Program-made: the position numbers and the translations under genes
From: Candidatus Barnesiella excrementavium
GTDB taxonomy: Bacteria > Bacteroidota > Bacteroidia > Bacteroidales > Barnesiellaceae
Assembly: GCA_019115485.1 (NCBI GenBank)
Contig: DXDM01000033.1
Location: 1 to 35,920 of the forward strand
Direction: 5' to 3'
Length of the DNA: 35,920 bases
The notes under the pieces: model-generated
What the model saw: the letters and a program-made list of their open reading frames with translations, nothing else
What the model was told of the DNA's origin: nothing
Databases searched by the model: none
Shown: positions 1 through 32,605 of the stretch, one piece after another
Position numbering within the stretch: position 1 is the first letter of the stretch
How the letters are laid out: the number at the start of each line of letters is the position of its first letter

Positions 1-92
1 CCCCGCACCACGATGCGGGGTCCAGTAAAGTGCCTCTTGTGGGTATTGCCTTTGCCAGTATTCCTGGATTCCGCATCAAGTGCGGAATGACG
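1..92. repeat. Tandem element copy 1 (two palindromes, dRS3-like)
   Basis: First of two near-identical units with a period of about 101 bp. The unit opens with an inverted repeat (CCCCGCA/TGCGGGG, 1-20) and closes with a second one (ATTCCGCA at 68-75, TGCGGAAT at 81-88). A conserved linker with CCTCTTGTGGGTATTGCC lies between them. No coding sequence is credible here. The closing palindrome has the ATTCC(N)nGGAAT form of dispersed repeats known in other bacteria, such as Neisseria dRS3. The left end may be cut by the window edge. Confidence 0.8.
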
Positions 93-101
93 TGGCGGTC
101 A

Positions 102-194
102 CCCCGCACAGCGATGCGGGGTCCAGAAAAGCGCCTCTTGTGGGTATTGCCTTTGCCGATATTCCCTGGATTCCGCATCAAGTGCGGAATGACG
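102..194. repeat. Tandem element copy 2 (two palindromes, dRS3-like)
   Basis: Second unit, matching copy 1 almost base for base but with one extra C in the TATTCCCTGG stretch and a few substitutions in the linker. It again starts with a CCCCGCA/TGCGGGG hairpin (about 102-121) and ends with ATTCCGCA (170-177) and TGCGGAAT (183-190). The substitutions lie in the linker and hairpin loops, so stem pairing is kept. Confidence 0.8.
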
Positions 195-26211: not shown

Positions 26212-28014
26212 TTATAAGTTCTTATCTATAAGTTGCACTTTTTGCTCGATTAGCTGCATCTCTTCGCGAATTTTTTGCATTTTCCGCTCCATCTCCTTCA
26301 ACAAGCCTCCCGACTTTTTCGACGAGATGTTCAAGAAACCGATATTGTTCTCATAGGTTTGCAATTCGGCTTTCTTCTGGTCATATATTCGCAGGAGCTT
26401 ATCGCGCTCGCGGTAGAGCTTGTCTTGGTTACCATCGGCCATTTGCTGTACCGTTGCCGAGAAATTGCTCAACCGATTGCGATTCTCATTCATATTCAAG
26501 CGTGCAAAGAGTATATCGAGTTGTGCCTGATATTCCTTATAGATTTTGTCTTTCTCCTTGAAGGGCACATAGCCTATCGTGTTCCATCGGGCCATCAGCT
26601 CGCGCACGGTCTTGATAGCCTCGTCGGGCTCTGTGGCCTCGTCGATGGCTTTCAGCTGGGCGATAATCTCGCGTTTCTTTTCGAGATTCTCCTGCTCGGC
26701 CTGGCGGGTAGAGGCCAACTGACTGTTCTTTTGGGCAAAGAAATAGTCGCAGGCCGATACGAAACGTTTCCAAATGGCATCGGAGTGTTTCTTGGCTACC
26801 GGTCCTATTGTTTTCCACTCCTTCTGCAAGGCTACGTAAATATCGGTCGTGGCTTTCCAGTCGGTACTGTCTTTGAGGGCCTCAGCCTTCTCGCAAAGGG
26901 CTTTCTTCTTTTCGAGATTGGCTGCCATTCGCTCTTTCACGGCCTTGAAGTATTCGGCCTTGCGGGCGAAAAATTCGTCGCAGGTCTTGCGGAAACGTTC
27001 AAACAGCAAGTTGTTCATCTTGCGCGAGGCGAATCCCAGGGTTTTCCAGCGGCTTTGCAGGTCGAGCACATGTTTGGTGGCTTCGTCCCACTGAGCAAAC
27101 GAGGTAAGAGCGTTCATGTCAATGGACTCTATCTCTTCGCACAAGGCAGTCTTGGCCTCTTCGTTCTTGCGCTCCACCTCCTTGCGGGCTTCAAAGAAAC
27201 TTTGATAGCGCTTGTTCACCTCGGTCGAGGCGTCTTTGAAGCGGTTCCACAACTCCTCGCGCAACTCCTTGGCTACGGGGCCGGTGACGCGCCACTCGTC
27301 GTGCAACAGTTGCAACTGCTTGAAGGCTGACACGACGTCGTCGTTGGTCAGCAGGGCTTCGGCAGCCTCGCACAGCGCAGTCTTCTGCTCGAGATTTTTC
27401 TTGAAATCGTAATCGCGTAACTCCTTGTTGATTTTCAACAGGTCGTAAAAATTTTCGACACAGGCCTGAAAACTCTTCCACAACCCCGATACCGCAGCCG
27501 AAGGTAACTCACAGGGTTCCTTGAACGCCTGTTGCAGCTCCTGGAAACGGGTGTACTGCTTGTTGATGTTGTCCGAGTCGGACGTGATGGCTTTCATCTC
27601 GTCCAAAATCTGTTGTTTGCGGGCGAGATTCTCCTCTTTCTGTTTTTCGAGCGAGGCGGTATACTCGGCCTTCTTCTCACGGAATACGGCCAGCAGGGAT
27701 TTGAGGGTCTCTTCCAGTTCATCGGGAGCGGGAACGAACTCCGACTCGGGATTCCCGGCGGCGACAAAAGCACTTCTCGCCTCTTCTATTTCGAGTTTTT
27801 TCTGTTTATAATAGGCTTGTTTCAGTTCATCGACTTCTTCCTTGACCTCTTCAACCGGGCCTTCGACCAGTTTTCTCAAAGCCTCCACAATCTCCTCTCG
27901 GGAGAGTTTGGGCGCCGACTGTGCCGAGTTCTGTTCCTCCTCGGCGGGAGTCATAGTTTGACCTGCTGGCAGTTCTTCTGCATTCACATCAGGTTTTTCA
28001 AGCTCTGTTGTCAT
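26212..28014 (-). CDS. DUF349 coiled-coil protein
   Basis: 600-residue, very charged, helical protein. After an acidic Glu/Pro-rich N-terminus (1-45) it holds about five DUF349-type repeats. Each has a WK or LW position and a block like ERFRKTCDEFFARKAEYF: ELWNRFKDASTEVNKRYQSFF, LFERFRKTCDEFFARKA, IWKRFVSACDYFFAQKN and IYKEYQAQLDILFARLN are four of them. A coiled coil (MERKMQKIREEMQLIEQKV) ends the protein. No signal peptide or membrane segment is seen. DUF349 proteins are of uncertain function. It follows Cas6 by 82 bp of very AT-rich DNA. Confidence 0.9.
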   Translation of the reverse strand: MTTELEKPDVNAEELPAGQTMTPAEEEQNSAQSAPKLSREEIVEALRKLVEGPVEEVKEEVDELKQAYYKQKKLEIEEARSAFVAAGNPESEFVPAPDELEETLKSLLAVFREKKAEYTASLEKQKEENLARKQQILDEMKAITSDSDNINKQYTRFQELQQAFKEPCELPSAAVSGLWKSFQACVENFYDLLKINKELRDYDFKKNLEQKTALCEAAEALLTNDDVVSAFKQLQLLHDEWRVTGPVAKELREELWNRFKDASTEVNKRYQSFFEARKEVERKNEEAKTALCEEIESIDMNALTSFAQWDEATKHVLDLQSRWKTLGFASRKMNNLLFERFRKTCDEFFARKAEYFKAVKERMAANLEKKKALCEKAEALKDSTDWKATTDIYVALQKEWKTIGPVAKKHSDAIWKRFVSACDYFFAQKNSQLASTRQAEQENLEKKREIIAQLKAIDEATEPDEAIKTVRELMARWNTIGYVPFKEKDKIYKEYQAQLDILFARLNMNENRNRLSNFSATVQQMADGNQDKLYRERDKLLRIYDQKKAELQTYENNIGFLNISSKKSGGLLKEMERKMQKIREEMQLIEQKVQLIDKNL

Positions 28015-28096
28015 AGTATATCTTTTTTATGAAGGGAAAAATCTTTATTCTCTCATACAAATTAAAAAATTTTTTTTGTCATTTCATACAAAAAAT

Positions 28097-28939
28097 TCAG
28101 ATTATTTTCTGCGATGTTCCCTCTTTTTCGGACAGAAAAGTCTCTTTTTTGTCGTCGGGTGCACCTCTGCGCAAAACTTCCACGCAGCCAAATCCCAAAT
28201 TCACCTTTTCGCCGATGCCGGTCTCGTACATGATTTGATGCAGCAAGGGGTCCATCGCTACCTTGAATTTATACATATAACCGATTACCTTCGACTCGTC
28301 GGGCGTGAACCGCATCATAAAGATGCCTTTGCGCTTGGGCTCCGAGAGTGTGCTCCACGAGAATCGAGCGTCACCCTCGAAGGGGCGCCCGAAGATGCGT
28401 TCATATTTACCCAGTATGGAGTGATAGAAACAATCGGCATAGGTGGGATAATCGGGGCCTATATATTCCATGCTGCGATTGGACCGGGCTACCATAAAAA
28501 CAATCGGCGACAGAGCCAGGTATTCGGCTTCGACACCGAACTCGGGGGACGGACAGTCGATAATCTCTTCGACGGCCAACTCGACCCGGCTGCGACGGTC
28601 GCCCAGGACAAAGGTGGTTCCCGAGAAGAGTTGTTCGACAAACGCACGAGTTCCCCGTACGGGAAGGAACGAAATCCACATCTGTACCTTTTTTACCAAG
28701 ATATGCAGGCGGTCGCCCTCGACCCGAATGCGAGGTATGTAGAGATTGGAAAAGGAGAACAACCGATTGCGGAAATCGTCGACCGGAGCGAACCCATTAC
28801 TGGAAAGCCAATGTAGATAGGCTTCGTAATTTTCACGAATGCGCCGATACACGGCTGCCGACAATTCGTACTGGTAGCTTACAGGCAAGATGTTGCCGAA
28901 GCTTTCGGACTTAACCGCCAAGACTAATTTAAATCGCAT
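28097..28939 (-). CDS. cas6: Cas6-like CRISPR RNA endoribonuclease, standing alone
   Basis: 280-residue protein of RAMP type. The N-terminus (RFKLVLAVKS, then PVSYQYELSAAVYRRI) and the C-terminal glycine-rich loop GIGEKVNLGFGCVEV are the hallmarks of Cas6. H43, in YLHWLSSNGF, is at the place of the usual catalytic histidine. Cas6 cuts CRISPR repeats in the precursor transcript. No other cas gene or repeat array was found in the window. The gene begins 15 nt after the stop of the M16 peptidase gene and so appears to be the last member of a run with cyclophilin and M16. It may process an array elsewhere, or have another RNA target. Confidence 0.82.
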   Translation of the reverse strand: MRFKLVLAVKSESFGNILPVSYQYELSAAVYRRIRENYEAYLHWLSSNGFAPVDDFRNRLFSFSNLYIPRIRVEGDRLHILVKKVQMWISFLPVRGTRAFVEQLFSGTTFVLGDRRSRVELAVEEIIDCPSPEFGVEAEYLALSPIVFMVARSNRSMEYIGPDYPTYADCFYHSILGKYERIFGRPFEGDARFSWSTLSEPKRKGIFMMRFTPDESKVIGYMYKFKVAMDPLLHQIMYETGIGEKVNLGFGCVEVLRRGAPDDKKETFLSEKEGTSQKII

Positions 28940-28954
28940 AACAACTACTCCATA

Positions 28955-30214
28955 TCATTTATCGCCCGAAGTGTCGGGAGTTGCCGCCTTGTACCACAGG
29001 GTCGAGCAGTTTTCCGGCACAAACAGGTCACTCGCAACACGCTGTAAATCGAGCGGAGCGAGTTTCTTATACCGCTCGACTTCAAAATCGATATTTTCGG
29101 CGCCCCCCAACAGCTCATAATAGGCCAGGTTGGTTGCTTTGTTCAGATAGTGCAAATTGGAAAAAAGGTCGTTCGACTCAAAGCGATTGACCACTTTGTC
29201 GAGCTCCCGCCTGTCGACGGGCTTTGCGACGATTTGGCGCAATTCGGTCTCGATGGCCTCTTCGCCCTGTTCCAGCGAGATGCCCGGCGAAAGTTTCCCT
29301 CGCAAGAGAAAGAGGCCCGGCTCAATGTCGCCAGTAACCGAAGCATCAATCTCGGCAAAGAGTTTCTGTTCCATGACCAGATGCCGGTAGAGCCGGGAGG
29401 AACGTCCCGAAGCCAATATGTCGGAGAGGGCATCGCAGGCCTGATAGTCGGGGTGACGCCGGTCGACCATGTGATAGGCTTTGAAGATGGCGTCGAGAGG
29501 TACGTTGCGCTCGACAGTCTGCCGGCGTGGACGGGTCTGTACCGGCTCCTGCGGCAATCGACGAGGGGCTACGGCCCGCCGGGGTATGGGGCCGAACCAC
29601 TTCTCGCACAAGGCTAATGCGTCGTCAAAGGGCAGGCTGCCCGAAATGCTCAGTATGGCATTGTTGGGGGCATAATGGGCAAAGAAGAATTGCTTGACCT
29701 CGTCGAGCGTGGCGTCGGCAATGTGCGACACCTCTTTCCCGATGACCGGCCACCGATAAGGGTGCACCTGATAGGCCATGGGCCTGAGCAACAGAAAGGA
29801 GTCGCCATAGGGCTGATTGAGGTTGCGCTGCTTGAACTCCTCGATAACGACTTGCTTTTGCACGGACAGTGATTCGGGCGAGAAAGCCAGACTGAGCATG
29901 CGGTCGGACTCCAACCAGAAAGCGGTCTCGATATTGTGCGTGGGGGCGACCGTGTAGTAATTGGTCACGTCGTTACTGGTCCAGGCGTTGTTCTCGCCTC
30001 CGGCCTTTTGGAGCGGGGTATCGAAGTCGGGGACATGCAGAGAACCGCCGAACATGAGATGCTCGAAAAGGTGGGCAAAACCGGTGCGGTCGGGCGACTC
30101 GTCTTTCGAGCCCACATCATACAGCAGATTCAACGCCGTCATGCGTGTAGAGGCGTCGTAGTGGTGTATGATGCGCAGTCCGTTGGGCAGTATGTGACGA
30201 CGGAAGGATATCAC
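28955..30214 (-). CDS. M16-family zinc peptidase
   Basis: 419 residues with the inverted zinc motif HLFEH (H48, E51, H52) in FAHLFEHLMFGG. A downstream glutamate in VVIEEFKQRN (125-126) is the expected third ligand. The second half matches the inactive partner half (M16_C) of these enzymes. The length equals one M16 unit of the mitochondrial-processing-peptidase type. No signal peptide is seen, so it is probably cytoplasmic. The start is GTG at 30214, directly abutting the cyclophilin stop (TAAGTG), and no nearby ATG exists, so coupled translation is likely. Confidence 0.9.
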   Translation of the reverse strand: MISFRRHILPNGLRIIHHYDASTRMTALNLLYDVGSKDESPDRTGFAHLFEHLMFGGSLHVPDFDTPLQKAGGENNAWTSNDVTNYYTVAPTHNIETAFWLESDRMLSLAFSPESLSVQKQVVIEEFKQRNLNQPYGDSFLLLRPMAYQVHPYRWPVIGKEVSHIADATLDEVKQFFFAHYAPNNAILSISGSLPFDDALALCEKWFGPIPRRAVAPRRLPQEPVQTRPRRQTVERNVPLDAIFKAYHMVDRRHPDYQACDALSDILASGRSSRLYRHLVMEQKLFAEIDASVTGDIEPGLFLLRGKLSPGISLEQGEEAIETELRQIVAKPVDRRELDKVVNRFESNDLFSNLHYLNKATNLAYYELLGGAENIDFEVERYKKLAPLDLQRVASDLFVPENCSTLWYKAATPDTSGDK

Positions 30215-31033
30215 TTATTTCTCGATTTTCATTTTTATGATTTTGACATCGGCGACCGGTCGGTCGGCAGCTCCGGTCTCGACCTGCTGAATTTTATTGA
30301 CGACGTCCATTCCTTCAATCACCTCGCCGAAAACGGTGTATTCACCATCGAGATGGGGCGTCCCGCCCACGGTCGTATAGGCTTCGCGCTGGGCCTGGGT
30401 AAAGGTGCGTTTCCCCTCTTTCTTGATTTGCTCCTTCATCTGGGCAATGAGGGTATCTTGCAAGGTTTGCAACCCCTGCATGTCGCGGGCCTTGCGCATG
30501 TTCAGAATCTCTTCGCGATGAGCAGCGGCCAGCGCCTGGAATACCGACTGCTCCTGCTGCATCTGCATCTGACGCTCCATCTGGTCGAGTTGCTGCGGAT
30601 TGAACACCTTGCCGGTGACGATATAGAACTGTGACCCCGAAGAGGCTTTTTCGGGATTTACCAGATCGCCTTGCCGGGCGGCGGCCAAGGCTCCGCGTTT
30701 GTGGAAATACTTGGGATAGACGAATTCGGCCGGGACAGTATACCCCGGATCGCCCATTCCCAGCATCTTGCCTGCGGGTGCGTTTTTGGAGGTACCGTCG
30801 CCTCCCTGTATCATAAATTCATTAATCACCCGGTGAAACAGCGTTCCGTCGTAGTACCCTTCGTTGACCAGTTTCACAAAATTGTCACGGTGTGCGGGGG
30901 TCTCGTCGTAAAGTTTCACTTTGATATTTCCCAAAGAGGTTTCCATCAGGACAACCGTCTCCTTATGGCTTGTCGAGGCACAACTCATACTGATTATTAT
31001 TAATAAAACGATAAAATAAATTTTGTTATTCAT
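30215..31033 (-). CDS. Cyclophilin-type peptidyl-prolyl isomerase lipoprotein
   Basis: 272-residue lipoprotein. I choose ATG at 31033, which gives MNNKIYFIVLLIIISMSC with a lipobox cysteine at position 18; an upstream frame start adds 32 non-signal residues. The fold is cyclophilin: ETSLGNIKVKLYDETPAHRD, then FHRVINEFMIQGGD and GSQFYIVTG. A charged, Gln/Glu-rich helical insertion of about 70 residues (roughly 175-245) interrupts the domain before the conserved LDGEYTVFGEVIEGMDVV. It assists folding of envelope proteins. It heads the cyclophilin-M16-Cas6 run. Confidence 0.93.
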   Translation of the reverse strand: MNNKIYFIVLLIIISMSCASTSHKETVVLMETSLGNIKVKLYDETPAHRDNFVKLVNEGYYDGTLFHRVINEFMIQGGDGTSKNAPAGKMLGMGDPGYTVPAEFVYPKYFHKRGALAAARQGDLVNPEKASSGSQFYIVTGKVFNPQQLDQMERQMQMQQEQSVFQALAAAHREEILNMRKARDMQGLQTLQDTLIAQMKEQIKKEGKRTFTQAQREAYTTVGGTPHLDGEYTVFGEVIEGMDVVNKIQQVETGAADRPVADVKIIKMKIEK

Positions 31034-31377: not shown

Positions 31378-32529
31378 TTACTGCTTGATGACCCGCTCCA
31401 AAACCATATCTTCGCCACATCTTACCATCACCACGTACAGGCCGGCTGGCAGATGGCTTAATGAAACGAACCCGGCATCCTCCTGTTCCAGCACGCAGCT
31501 TCCCGTCAGGTCATAGACTTTTACCCGGGCCTTCCCTCCATGCCAATAGAGACAATCGGCCGTAGGATTAGGATAGACCACCAGAGGAGACGCTTCTCTC
31601 TTGTCAAGGCCCAAGGTGGGCATACCGGCGATATCGCCCACATAAATTTCGTCCAGGGCGCCACCAATCGACACGCCCGAATTCCCCGTAGAGACAAAGC
31701 GCCAGCGCAGAGTCACGCGCTGCCCTGCGTAGTCGGCCAACGATACGTATTTATGGCGCCACTTCGAGCGTTCCTGGGTATAGGCCAAGGGCGTCCATTC
31801 GTTATCATCGCTTGTCCTGATTTCGAAATAAAGCGTTCCCCCGGCATCGTCGACCTCATCTGTGGGTAGCTCGACAACAGGTTCATTTTCACAACCAGAC
31901 ATCAAGTAGCTACACGGAGCTCCTCCCCAGGCAAAGGAGGCTACCATGTCGCCCGTTTCGGGAAGGATAAACGACGGTGTGACCAGCATCGATTGTTCAT
32001 TGGCATAATTGTGCCACACCGAGGCGGAATATTTCCCGGCAAAAGCACCCATGTTGCTGGCTTTCCACGTTTGAATGCCTTCGCCTTCGTGCCAGCTCAC
32101 CCACCCTGACGGGGGTACGAATCCCTTTTCAAACCCCATCGTATAGGGGAAATCGCTGATTGAGCAGTCGCCCCGGGTGCTGGCCGCCCAGGTATCGACA
32201 GAGCTGTCCTTTTCCTCCTCGTTATGGGGTAAGGCCTGCCGGTAACAAGCTGTTGTGGAAGACCATTCGGAAATGATACAGGAGGTTGAGACATACCTCT
32301 CCGAGCAGGCATTGTGCCGTAAAGAGATGGGGGTATTGCGGCAGGGCTCTAACGTAACTGACTTCATACCCGAAGTGGAGACTCCTTTGACCGTAAGCCC
32401 GCCTCCACGGCTCGTCCAACCGGGTAAAGGAAAACGTTGAGCTTCAAAATCTTCGTCCAGCAAAAGTCCTGACCGCACTCCTATCGCGGTTAAGACGAAT
32501 ACTCCTATAAGCATCATTCTCCTAATCAT
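31378..32529 (-). CDS. Secreted protein with T9SS type A sorting domain
   Basis: 383 residues from ATG at 32529 (MIRRMMLIGVFVLTAIG, a signal peptide); ATG at 32541 adds four residues. The mature region has two stretches that look like MAM or cleaved-adhesin jelly-roll domains: FEAQRFPLPGWTSRGGG near the start and FEKGFVPPSGWVSWHEGEG in the middle. The last about 70 residues match the T9SS C-terminal sorting domain: VVYPNPTADCLYW, VKVYDLTGSCVLE, LSHLPAGLYVVMV, VIKQ. The protein should cross the outer membrane through the type IX system and may be anchored at the surface. Function is unknown; binding to host or glycan is one possibility. Confidence 0.85.
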   Translation of the reverse strand: MIRRMMLIGVFVLTAIGVRSGLLLDEDFEAQRFPLPGWTSRGGGLTVKGVSTSGMKSVTLEPCRNTPISLRHNACSERYVSTSCIISEWSSTTACYRQALPHNEEEKDSSVDTWAASTRGDCSISDFPYTMGFEKGFVPPSGWVSWHEGEGIQTWKASNMGAFAGKYSASVWHNYANEQSMLVTPSFILPETGDMVASFAWGGAPCSYLMSGCENEPVVELPTDEVDDAGGTLYFEIRTSDDNEWTPLAYTQERSKWRHKYVSLADYAGQRVTLRWRFVSTGNSGVSIGGALDEIYVGDIAGMPTLGLDKREASPLVVYPNPTADCLYWHGGKARVKVYDLTGSCVLEQEDAGFVSLSHLPAGLYVVMVRCGEDMVLERVIKQ

Positions 32530-32605
32530 GATGTGCCTCATTAAGATTTGTGATGAATGACGAGAGGTGCCTTGACAGACCAAGGCAACGGGCTTTTGCA
32601 CAAAA

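Follow-up and report, generated by a model that had tools for sequence, protein, structure and literature searches.

A solo Cas6-fold protein lacking the catalytic histidine, encoded beside a DUF349 gene in Barnesiella, suggests recruitment for an ordinary cell job

Archaeal paralogues of the CRISPR endoribonuclease Cas6, abbreviated Cas6nc, are termed inactive or non-catalytic in the cited sections of two papers (PMC3727216, PMC3652601), and the protein of structure entry 3ufc is one of them, PfuCas6nc (PMC3652601). According to the same section, SsoCas6 lacks the catalytic His and is nevertheless active (PMC3652601). Exaptation of entire CRISPR modules has happened many times; examples in the cited part of one survey are Streptomyces I-E-derived modules with a STAND NTPase, type IV systems, and a Haloarcula toxin-antitoxin RNA module (PMC8730458). 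An earlier description of a lone or domesticated Cas6 such as the one reported here was not evident among the matches listed and in the open-access literature searched, which also yielded nothing on Cas6 in Barnesiella or on DUF349 essentiality in Bacteroides.

The window analysed here is an entire contig (C25, 35,920 of 35,920 bases) from the 94%-complete draft genome of Candidatus Barnesiella excrementavium (G000). It contains a gene which an earlier note on this DNA had called Cas6-like (Table 1), and which is referred to as solo cas6 in the following, together with its counterparts in relatives. The HMM searches bear out this identity, and the refuting case of no HMM match did not arise: PF01881 matches the product with an E-value of 3.4e-16, the PADLOC Cas6b model with 2.8e-43, and TIGR01877 with 59.8 bits, which passes the cut-off of 58.65, so that the protein would be named “CRISPR-associated endoribonuclease Cas6”. 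The N-terminal model PF21350 stays slightly below its cut-off (26.6 versus 27). The AF2 model (pLDDT 87.8, pTM 0.83; low confidence in the C-terminal tail 259–280) predicts a tandem RRM (RAMP) arrangement with a C-terminal glycine-rich loop, and thus a Cas6 fold. Its top matches in a Foldseek search against the PDB are the Cas6 proteins 5yi6, 3qjj, 3ufc, and 3i4h, with E-values from 3.5e-18 to 4.2e-13. We take 3qjj and 3qjp to be entries of PH0350, that is PhCas6nc; 3zfv, presumably the SsoCas6 entry, ranks 24th.

Table 1. Solo cas6 and the adjoining features in the window.
Feature	Positions	Strand	Basis
DUF349 protein gene, 600 aa, predicted long helices, constant downstream neighbour	26212..28014	(-)	PF03993 1.5e-97, model, adjacency
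AT-rich 82-nt cas6-DUF349 gap, similar across nine Barnesiella, with TTAATTTG motif	28015..28096	(-)	
Solo Cas6-fold protein gene, 280 aa	28097..28939	(-)	PF01881, TIGR01877, PADLOC Cas6b, AF2 model, alignment
M16 peptidase gene, lineage-specific neighbour	28955..30214	(-)	PF00675, PF05193
Cyclophilin-type peptidyl-prolyl isomerase gene, lipoprotein-like signal, lineage-specific neighbour	30215..31033	(-)	PF00160, ORF list

For the analysis of the active site, 29 solo Cas6 rows were compared with 22 CRISPR-type Cas6 rows, a label which stands for score, tree position, and His taken together; for 6 of the 22 (L012, L015, L016, L116, L120, L127) an array or Cas1 lies on the same contig. Two rows were dropped from the alignment: L017, which is truncated by masked bases and has LH at the site, and L087, which lacks its N-terminus. 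The column of the catalytic His (PfuCas6 H46; window position 46), in which the solo rows align with the His of YLHE in PfuCas6 3pkm, holds His in 21 of 22 CRISPR-type rows and in none of the 29 solo rows, where S (12), R (6), G (6), Q (2), Y (2), and F (1) occur instead. In the window protein the alignment places S46 there (codon 28802–28804); H43, which had looked intact to the earlier note, is another, variable site with His in 8 of 29 relatives. The same note was right about the glycine-rich loop, whose glycines are kept in all 29 rows. The Tyr31 column reads Y 13, H 11, F 3, and N 2 in the solo rows, whereas all but one of the 22 CRISPR-type rows have Y. R203, K217, and K224 are present throughout the solo rows, position 59 is R or K in all of them, and the basic residue in the column of PfuCas6 K52 is kept (R/K in 29 of 29). 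Altogether, 50 of the first 257 columns are invariant among the solo rows, 11 of these being rare in CRISPR-type rows; S21, N65, Y67, Q86, W88, R203, and K224 are clade-specific. The net charge is no higher than in CRISPR-type Cas6 (median +2 versus +4).

The cyclophilin, M16, and cas6 genes had been read as an operon-like run, and in the window this layout holds: cas6 follows the M16 gene at the claimed distance of 15 nt, and the GTG start of the M16 gene does abut the cyclophilin stop at 30215. The M16 translation displays the HxxEH motif that we take to be characteristic of M16 peptidases. The cyclophilin start was set at the ATG at 31033, and the ORF list puts it at an upstream TTG (31129). 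The run is lineage-specific, however, as cyclophilin and M16 genes lie upstream of solo cas6 in 20 of 30 genomes (14 of 22 in one set of loci). The idea that co-transcription with these two genes is the functional unit was rejected because the other 10 genomes have different upstream content, comprising RsmE, DAHP synthase, a 519-aa ORF, or a divergent metallophosphoesterase; the L087 contig begins within cas6. Comparing the neighbourhood across relatives, as the earlier note had proposed, instead revealed the downstream DUF349 gene as the constant neighbour, adjoining solo cas6 in 29 of 30 genomes and across several gene contexts. A fold search with the DUF349 model (pTM 0.41) gave no match below E 0.001. 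DUF349 genes occur in 57 of 60 Bacteroidales genomes. A partnership between Cas6 and the DUF349 protein may be deduced from synteny; against it, the two genes lie ~8.6 kb apart in G068, a terminator-like hairpin stands between them in f111, and 48 of the 57 DUF349-bearing genomes have no solo cas6.

The TTAATTTG motif in the cas6-DUF349 gap presumably resembles a Bacteroidetes -7 box. A hairpin scan found no terminator in the gap of the window; among the four regions scanned for terminators (window, L083, L118, and L078), L118 alone gave a terminator-like hairpin. T-run hairpins were seen by eye in L081, L082, L084, L085, and G361, which lay outside the terminator scan, as well as in L083, where the scan did not find one. 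Folding of the cas6-DUF349 gaps of 28 genomes, judged by eye, showed no common hairpin, and the idea that the protein binds a leader or regulates its own expression was given up as unsupported. Rfam gave 0 matches on the window and three relatives (L118, L085, L076), and neither Rfam nor gap folding revealed an RNA ligand of solo Cas6. These results bear on the possibility that the protein is still an endoribonuclease with an atypical basic active site, as in SsoCas6, which processes one or a few cellular RNAs such as an sRNA, a precursor of rRNA or tRNA, or the leader of an mRNA. The glycine-rich loop, R203, K217, K224, and the basic residue at 59, all kept in 29 of 29 rows, are consistent with this, and the loss of the His is no proof that cleavage is lost, since SsoCas6 is active without it (PMC3652601, section cited above). 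However, the canonical His is gone from every solo row and six different residues have taken its place, the Tyr31 column varies as well, and a candidate substrate was found neither in the gaps of 28 genomes nor by Rfam on the window and three relatives. We consider this account possible, but rather improbable.

The earlier note had seen no other cas gene and no repeat array in the window, which left two options, either service to an array elsewhere or recruitment to process a cellular RNA. An exact-18-mer scan agrees that there is no array. At least 60 direct-repeat families are present in the window; among the 20 listed all are widely spaced and of low identity, except for a 101-nt repeat at 1–194 and one pair at 74%. 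The 18-mer scan covered the window plus 87 loci and then 39 loci (L109–L137, L056–L065), with L088–L108 and L138–L178 outside it and L178 checked for repeats separately. In the scanned stretches no array lies near solo cas6; the arrays that the scan did find were confined to loci included for their Cas1 or CRISPR-type Cas6. The absence of other cas genes extends to the draft genome, in which Cas1, Cas2, RAMP, and DevR/Cas7 gave no match, the DevR search (PF01905) being a weak negative, as it was positive in just 2 of 14 control genomes.

If solo Cas6 served arrays at other sites in its genome by maturing their crRNA in trans, it would be in company, as the majority of type III loci apparently rely on a Cas6 in trans according to the cited part of one study (PMC12669027), and 6 of the 9 genus genomes do have a Cas1 match. 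Yet the other three (G000, G002, G008) have no match to Cas1, Cas2, or RAMP and keep the gene. In all three carriers examined, the Cas6-dependent locus contains a separate Cas6 of its own (I-B in G173, III-B in G004 and G001, the latter two being the genus members with RAMP matches), and G003 has Cas12a with an array. In the nine genus genomes the pattern ATTGAAAY..ATTGAAAY gave six isolated pairs in four genomes (one in G000; reversed control 1) and no run of repeats with ATTGAAAY ends. A Cas6-dependent system without its own Cas6 was found in none of G000, G001, G002, G004, G008, and G173, and solo cas6 showed no tie to cas genes in G000 or to an array in the window and the stretches scanned. 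Service in trans is thus very unlikely. We favour recruitment for a function in the cell instead, because three of nine genus genomes retain the gene without Cas1, Cas2, or RAMP and because G173, G004, and G001 have a separate Cas6; that the protein would “process” its RNA, as the earlier note put it, is doubtful since none of the 29 rows retains the catalytic His. Solo Cas6 could also bind CRISPR repeats or crRNA uncut and thereby regulate resident or incoming CRISPR systems or act as a decoy for them. PhCas6nc, an inactive homologue described as binding unstructured RNA in the section cited (PMC3727216), is among the closest structural matches, but the gene is kept in genomes without detected cas genes and in conserved housekeeping synteny, and such a function seems highly improbable.

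In a tree of the 29 solo and 22 CRISPR-type rows, from which archaeal sequences were left out, the solo rows fall on one side of a branch with support 100/100, apart from the CRISPR-type rows, with a stem of 0.82 changes per column. The branch that carries the two f111 rows is long (1.4). When they are taken out, the solo group has support 71/79, for no other reason than their uncertain placement within it. Solo cas6 occurs in 9/9 Barnesiella genomes and in genomes of five other Bacteroidales families, with 5/5 in family f61 and 6/7 in f69; among 393 genomes of the order, 82 match at E <= 1e-30, 21 of them at 425–463 bits, 2 at 283–285, and the rest at <=243. The frame is open in all 29 solo rows of the tree. 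Among nine Barnesiella, the median dN/dS of cas6 is 0.069 (19 computable of 36 pairs), compared to 0.067 for M16, 0.061 for cyclophilin, and 0.038 for DUF349. Solo cas6 is under purifying selection (dN/dS ~0.07), and this, together with the 50 invariant columns, substantiates the former impression that the gene is not obviously decayed. The lone gene and the lost His might also be read as the leftover, evolving neutrally, of a CRISPR-Cas locus that has disappeared. This can practically be set aside, as the low dN/dS over nine species speaks strongly against it and the open frames, the invariant columns, and the presence in 9/9, 5/5, and 6/7 genomes of three families do so as well.

The loss of the cutting residue, the housekeeping neighbours, the long retention, and the carriers without detected CRISPR genes (G000, G002, and G008 with no Cas1, Cas2, or RAMP match, G180 and G397 with no Cas1 match) suggest that the protein was recruited for an ordinary cell job, and solo Cas6 is most likely a translation or RNA-metabolism factor rather than an immunity one. 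The reading we prefer, to which we give about an even chance, is that an exapted Cas6 now binds RNA outside CRISPR, probably without cleaving it, and acts with the DUF349 protein in housekeeping RNA metabolism or translation. Its departure from CRISPR would date to the early evolution of one group of Bacteroidales families. The two RRM domains may still hold a specific RNA between them, with further contacts on the conserved basic C-terminal hairpin (KRKGIF..R) and the glycine-rich loop, and the protein would leave this RNA uncut or cut it only feebly. It would act as an RNA chaperone or adaptor alongside the DUF349 protein, since a DUF349 protein of mycobacteria binds RNA, DNA, and ribosomal protein S1 (PMC3348880, in the part cited). 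A bolder version, in which a single capture of Cas6 in the ancestor of the Bacteroidales group gave rise to an RNA-reading subunit that a DUF349 complex on the ribosome or mRNA cannot do without, working via S1, and so to a core factor of translation or RNA metabolism, appears unlikely. If the preferred reading is true, a single Cas6 nearly fixed in the chromosomes of several families, with its catalytic His lost and 11 clade-specific invariant residues, would be a clear-cut example of how an RNA nuclease of immunity became a protein that binds cellular RNA, and solo Cas6 would provide a direct handle on the little-studied DUF349 family. Naming the gene Cas6 makes the genome seem to hold a CRISPR remnant.

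Compared to the Cas6/Cas6b endoribonucleases (PF01881, TIGR01877; PfuCas6 3i4h, 3pkm), solo Cas6 is alike in its predicted two-RRM fold, the glycine-rich loop, and full-length homology, whereas the solo group has no catalytic His (0/29), no adjacent cas operon or array was seen, and near-constant DUF349 and housekeeping synteny set it apart. PhCas6nc and PfuCas6nc are among its best sequence and structure matches, and they lack the catalytic His as well, which a profile alignment replaces by Ser in PH0350 (3qjj) and by Glu in 3ufc; judged by alignment and model, solo Cas6 likewise combines a predicted Cas6 fold with a replaced catalytic His. The likeness to the Pyrococcus proteins is one of match and His loss; the solo group differs in that it is bacterial, has its own long stem and a near-constant DUF349, and occurs in genomes without detected CRISPR genes. 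SsoCas6 also lacks the catalytic His (PMC3652601, section cited) but makes crRNA. With the exapted CRISPR parts solo Cas6 would share the use outside ordinary adaptive immunity (PMC8730458, part cited); those, however, keep several cas genes or CRISPR-like RNAs, whereas solo Cas6 is a single housekeeping gene.

The earlier note had named an HMM search without a Cas6 match as an outcome that would overturn its reading of the Cas6-like gene; all three models matched the encoded protein, namely PF01881 (3.4e-16, profile search), TIGR01877 (59.8 bits, cut-off 58.65) and PADLOC Cas6b (2.8e-43). Its AlphaFold model (pLDDT 87.8, pTM 0.83) retrieved Cas6 structures first in Foldseek (5yi6, 3qjj, 3ufc and 3i4h). 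The solo protein is Cas6-derived. The ORF calls also bore out the 15-nt spacing between the M16 gene and cas6 and the contact of the M16 start with the cyclophilin stop.

Features of the cas6 region and of the contig end
Feature	Position (nt)	Strand	Remark
Repeat units	1-194		contig end
DUF349 gene	26212-28014	minus	downstream of cas6
cas6	28097-28939	minus	ORF call
M16 gene	28955-30214		GTG start; ORF call
Cyclophilin gene	30215-31033		from ATG
Por-tail protein gene	31378-32601		PF18962

The window spans one entire contig; the genome, assembled into 60 contigs, measures 2.68 Mb and is 94% complete. At the contig end, a unit of ~101 nt that contains palindromic segments (ccccgcac..gatgcgggg and attccgcatcaagtgcggaat) occurs twice; the assembly may have stopped here at an interspersed repeat.

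The solo cas6 gene is present in 9/9 Barnesiella genomes, where the gene order is cyclophilin-M16-cas6-DUF349 and the eight other proteins are 75-89% identical to that of the window. An alignment-based search of genome contigs yielded 22 loci from Barnesiella, Coprobacter, Candidatus Gallibacteroides and other Bacteroidales, six of which belong to Barnesiella genomes already counted. Order-wide, 82 of 393 genomes gave a match at E <= 1e-30. By score, these fall into a group of 21 genomes from five families (f1, f61, f69, f79 and f89; 425-463 bits), a second one of two genomes from family f111 (283-285 bits), and all other matches at <=243 bits. The gene occurs in 5/5 f61 and 6/7 f69 genomes, whereby the single f69 genome lacking it is 83%-complete. 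Solo cas6 is thus not a stray.

Matches to Cas1, Cas2 or RAMP families were absent from the window's genome and two others (G002, G008), and two f69 carriers (G180, G397) gave no Cas1 match, all of these being draft genomes in which absence is never complete. DevR/Cas7 gave no match in 9/9 Barnesiella genomes, a search with a weak control. Carriers with an examined Cas6-dependent system each have a Cas6 of its own: Coprobacter secundus has a I-B locus with LH-type Cas6b, Cas8b, Cas7b, Cas5b, Cas3, Cas1 and an array of 30 repeats (L120); G004 has a III-B locus, where Cas10, Cmr6 and RT-Cas1 are accompanied by a Cas6 distinct from the solo one; and G001 has relatives of these Cas10, Cmr6 and Cas6 proteins, the last at 70% identity. 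Cas12a was found in G003; Cas12a and Cas1 genes accompany arrays of 16 and 14 repeats in the Barnesiella genomes G004 (L058) and G003 (L059), respectively.

In a tree rooted at midpoint, a branch of length 0.82 (support 100/100) separates 29 solo from 22 CRISPR-type proteins; because of this rooting, descent of the solo form from a CRISPR Cas6 is an inference as to direction. The two f111 rows sit on a long branch and their position within the solo group is not fixed by the tree. Fifty of the first 257 alignment columns are invariant among the solo proteins, and 11 of these residues (S21, S62, N65, Y67, V73, Q86, W88, Y140, V147, R203 and K224) occur in <=20% of the CRISPR-type rows. Among nine Barnesiella, the median dN/dS of cas6 was 0.069 (19/36 pairs with computable dS), similar to M16 (0.067) and higher than DUF349 (0.038), these ratios being rough since dS was >=0.92, near saturation. 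The catalytic His column, set in the alignment by PfuCas6 (H46; YLHE in 3pkm), holds His in 21/22 CRISPR-type but 0/29 solo proteins, where it drifts (S12 R6 G6 Q2 Y2 F1). H43, which the earlier note had taken as intact, lies outside this column and is His in only 8/29 solo rows. The PfuCas6 Tyr31 column retains Y in 13/29, and a basic residue (R or K) occupies the Lys52 column in all 29.

Neighbours were counted in 30 genomes (9 Barnesiella, L072-L087, G068, G076, G265, G217 and G361). In 29/30, DUF349 lies downstream of cas6 in the same orientation; 28 of the intervening gaps were measured and span 81-217 nt. The sole break is in G068 (L054:10336-18974), where ~8.6 kb with two large opposite-strand ORFs intervene. 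The cyclophilin-M16 run, with which cas6 had been proposed to be co-transcribed, keeps its tight spacing in the window but precedes cas6 in just 20/30 genomes. Elsewhere, the upstream position is taken by DAHP synthase, with RsmE behind it (L085, L086) or alone visible (L079), by a 519-aa ORF with RsmE beyond (L073), or by RsmE directly (f111, G217, G361), and in L074, L076 and L077 by a metallophosphoesterase gene that is divergent; in L087 the contig starts inside cas6. The cyclophilin has a lipoprotein-like signal (LLIIISMSC), which would place its activity in another compartment than that of Cas6 and counts against a functional unit. The gene adjoining the run encodes a fast-evolving protein that ends in a Por secretion tail. 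It is 51-57% identical in 7/8 Barnesiella stretches and was not detected in the remaining one (L047), compared with 75-96% for cas6, M16, cyclophilin and DUF349. DUF349 itself was found in 57/60 genomes, and G029 and G036 have M16-DUF349-wcaJ without cas6. In a 34-row DUF349 tree, 19 cas6-bearing loci and three cas6-less rows form one 22-row group (100/98); cas6 presence changes three times as drawn, of which the starred branches force only one, so that there may have been one gain with a few losses. Since f111 has a terminator-like hairpin between cas6 and DUF349, co-transcription does not hold throughout, and what connects the two genes is synteny.

The analysis establishes the predicted fold, the clade, the lost His, the selection and the synteny. 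Of the options in the earlier note we prefer cellular recruitment, in the form of RNA binding outside CRISPR that would serve translation or RNA metabolism, and for which we see about an even chance. The protein would bind RNA via the conserved C-terminal KRKGIF..R hairpin and the glycine-rich loop and may act together with DUF349. According to PMC3348880, MSMEG_2731, the only characterised DUF349 protein found, has micromolar affinity for RNA and DNA and also binds S1, a ribosomal protein, directly, which favours such a role. The main alternative, cleavage of cellular RNA through an atypical site, appears rather unlikely given the missing His; His loss is no proof of inactivity, however, because SsoCas6 without such a His still cleaves, as stated in PMC3652601. 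No RNA target was found for solo Cas6, which is well worth an experiment.

Compared with a crRNA endoribonuclease, the solo protein lacks two of the features tested, the catalytic His and the genomic link. Its closest precedent are the Pyrococcus Cas6nc paralogues: PH0350 (3qjj), which we take to be PhCas6nc, has Ser at the catalytic His column, as has the window protein (S46). PhCas6nc is called inactive in PMC3727216. The lack of the catalytic His is also shared with SsoCas6, which, however, does cleave (PMC3652601).
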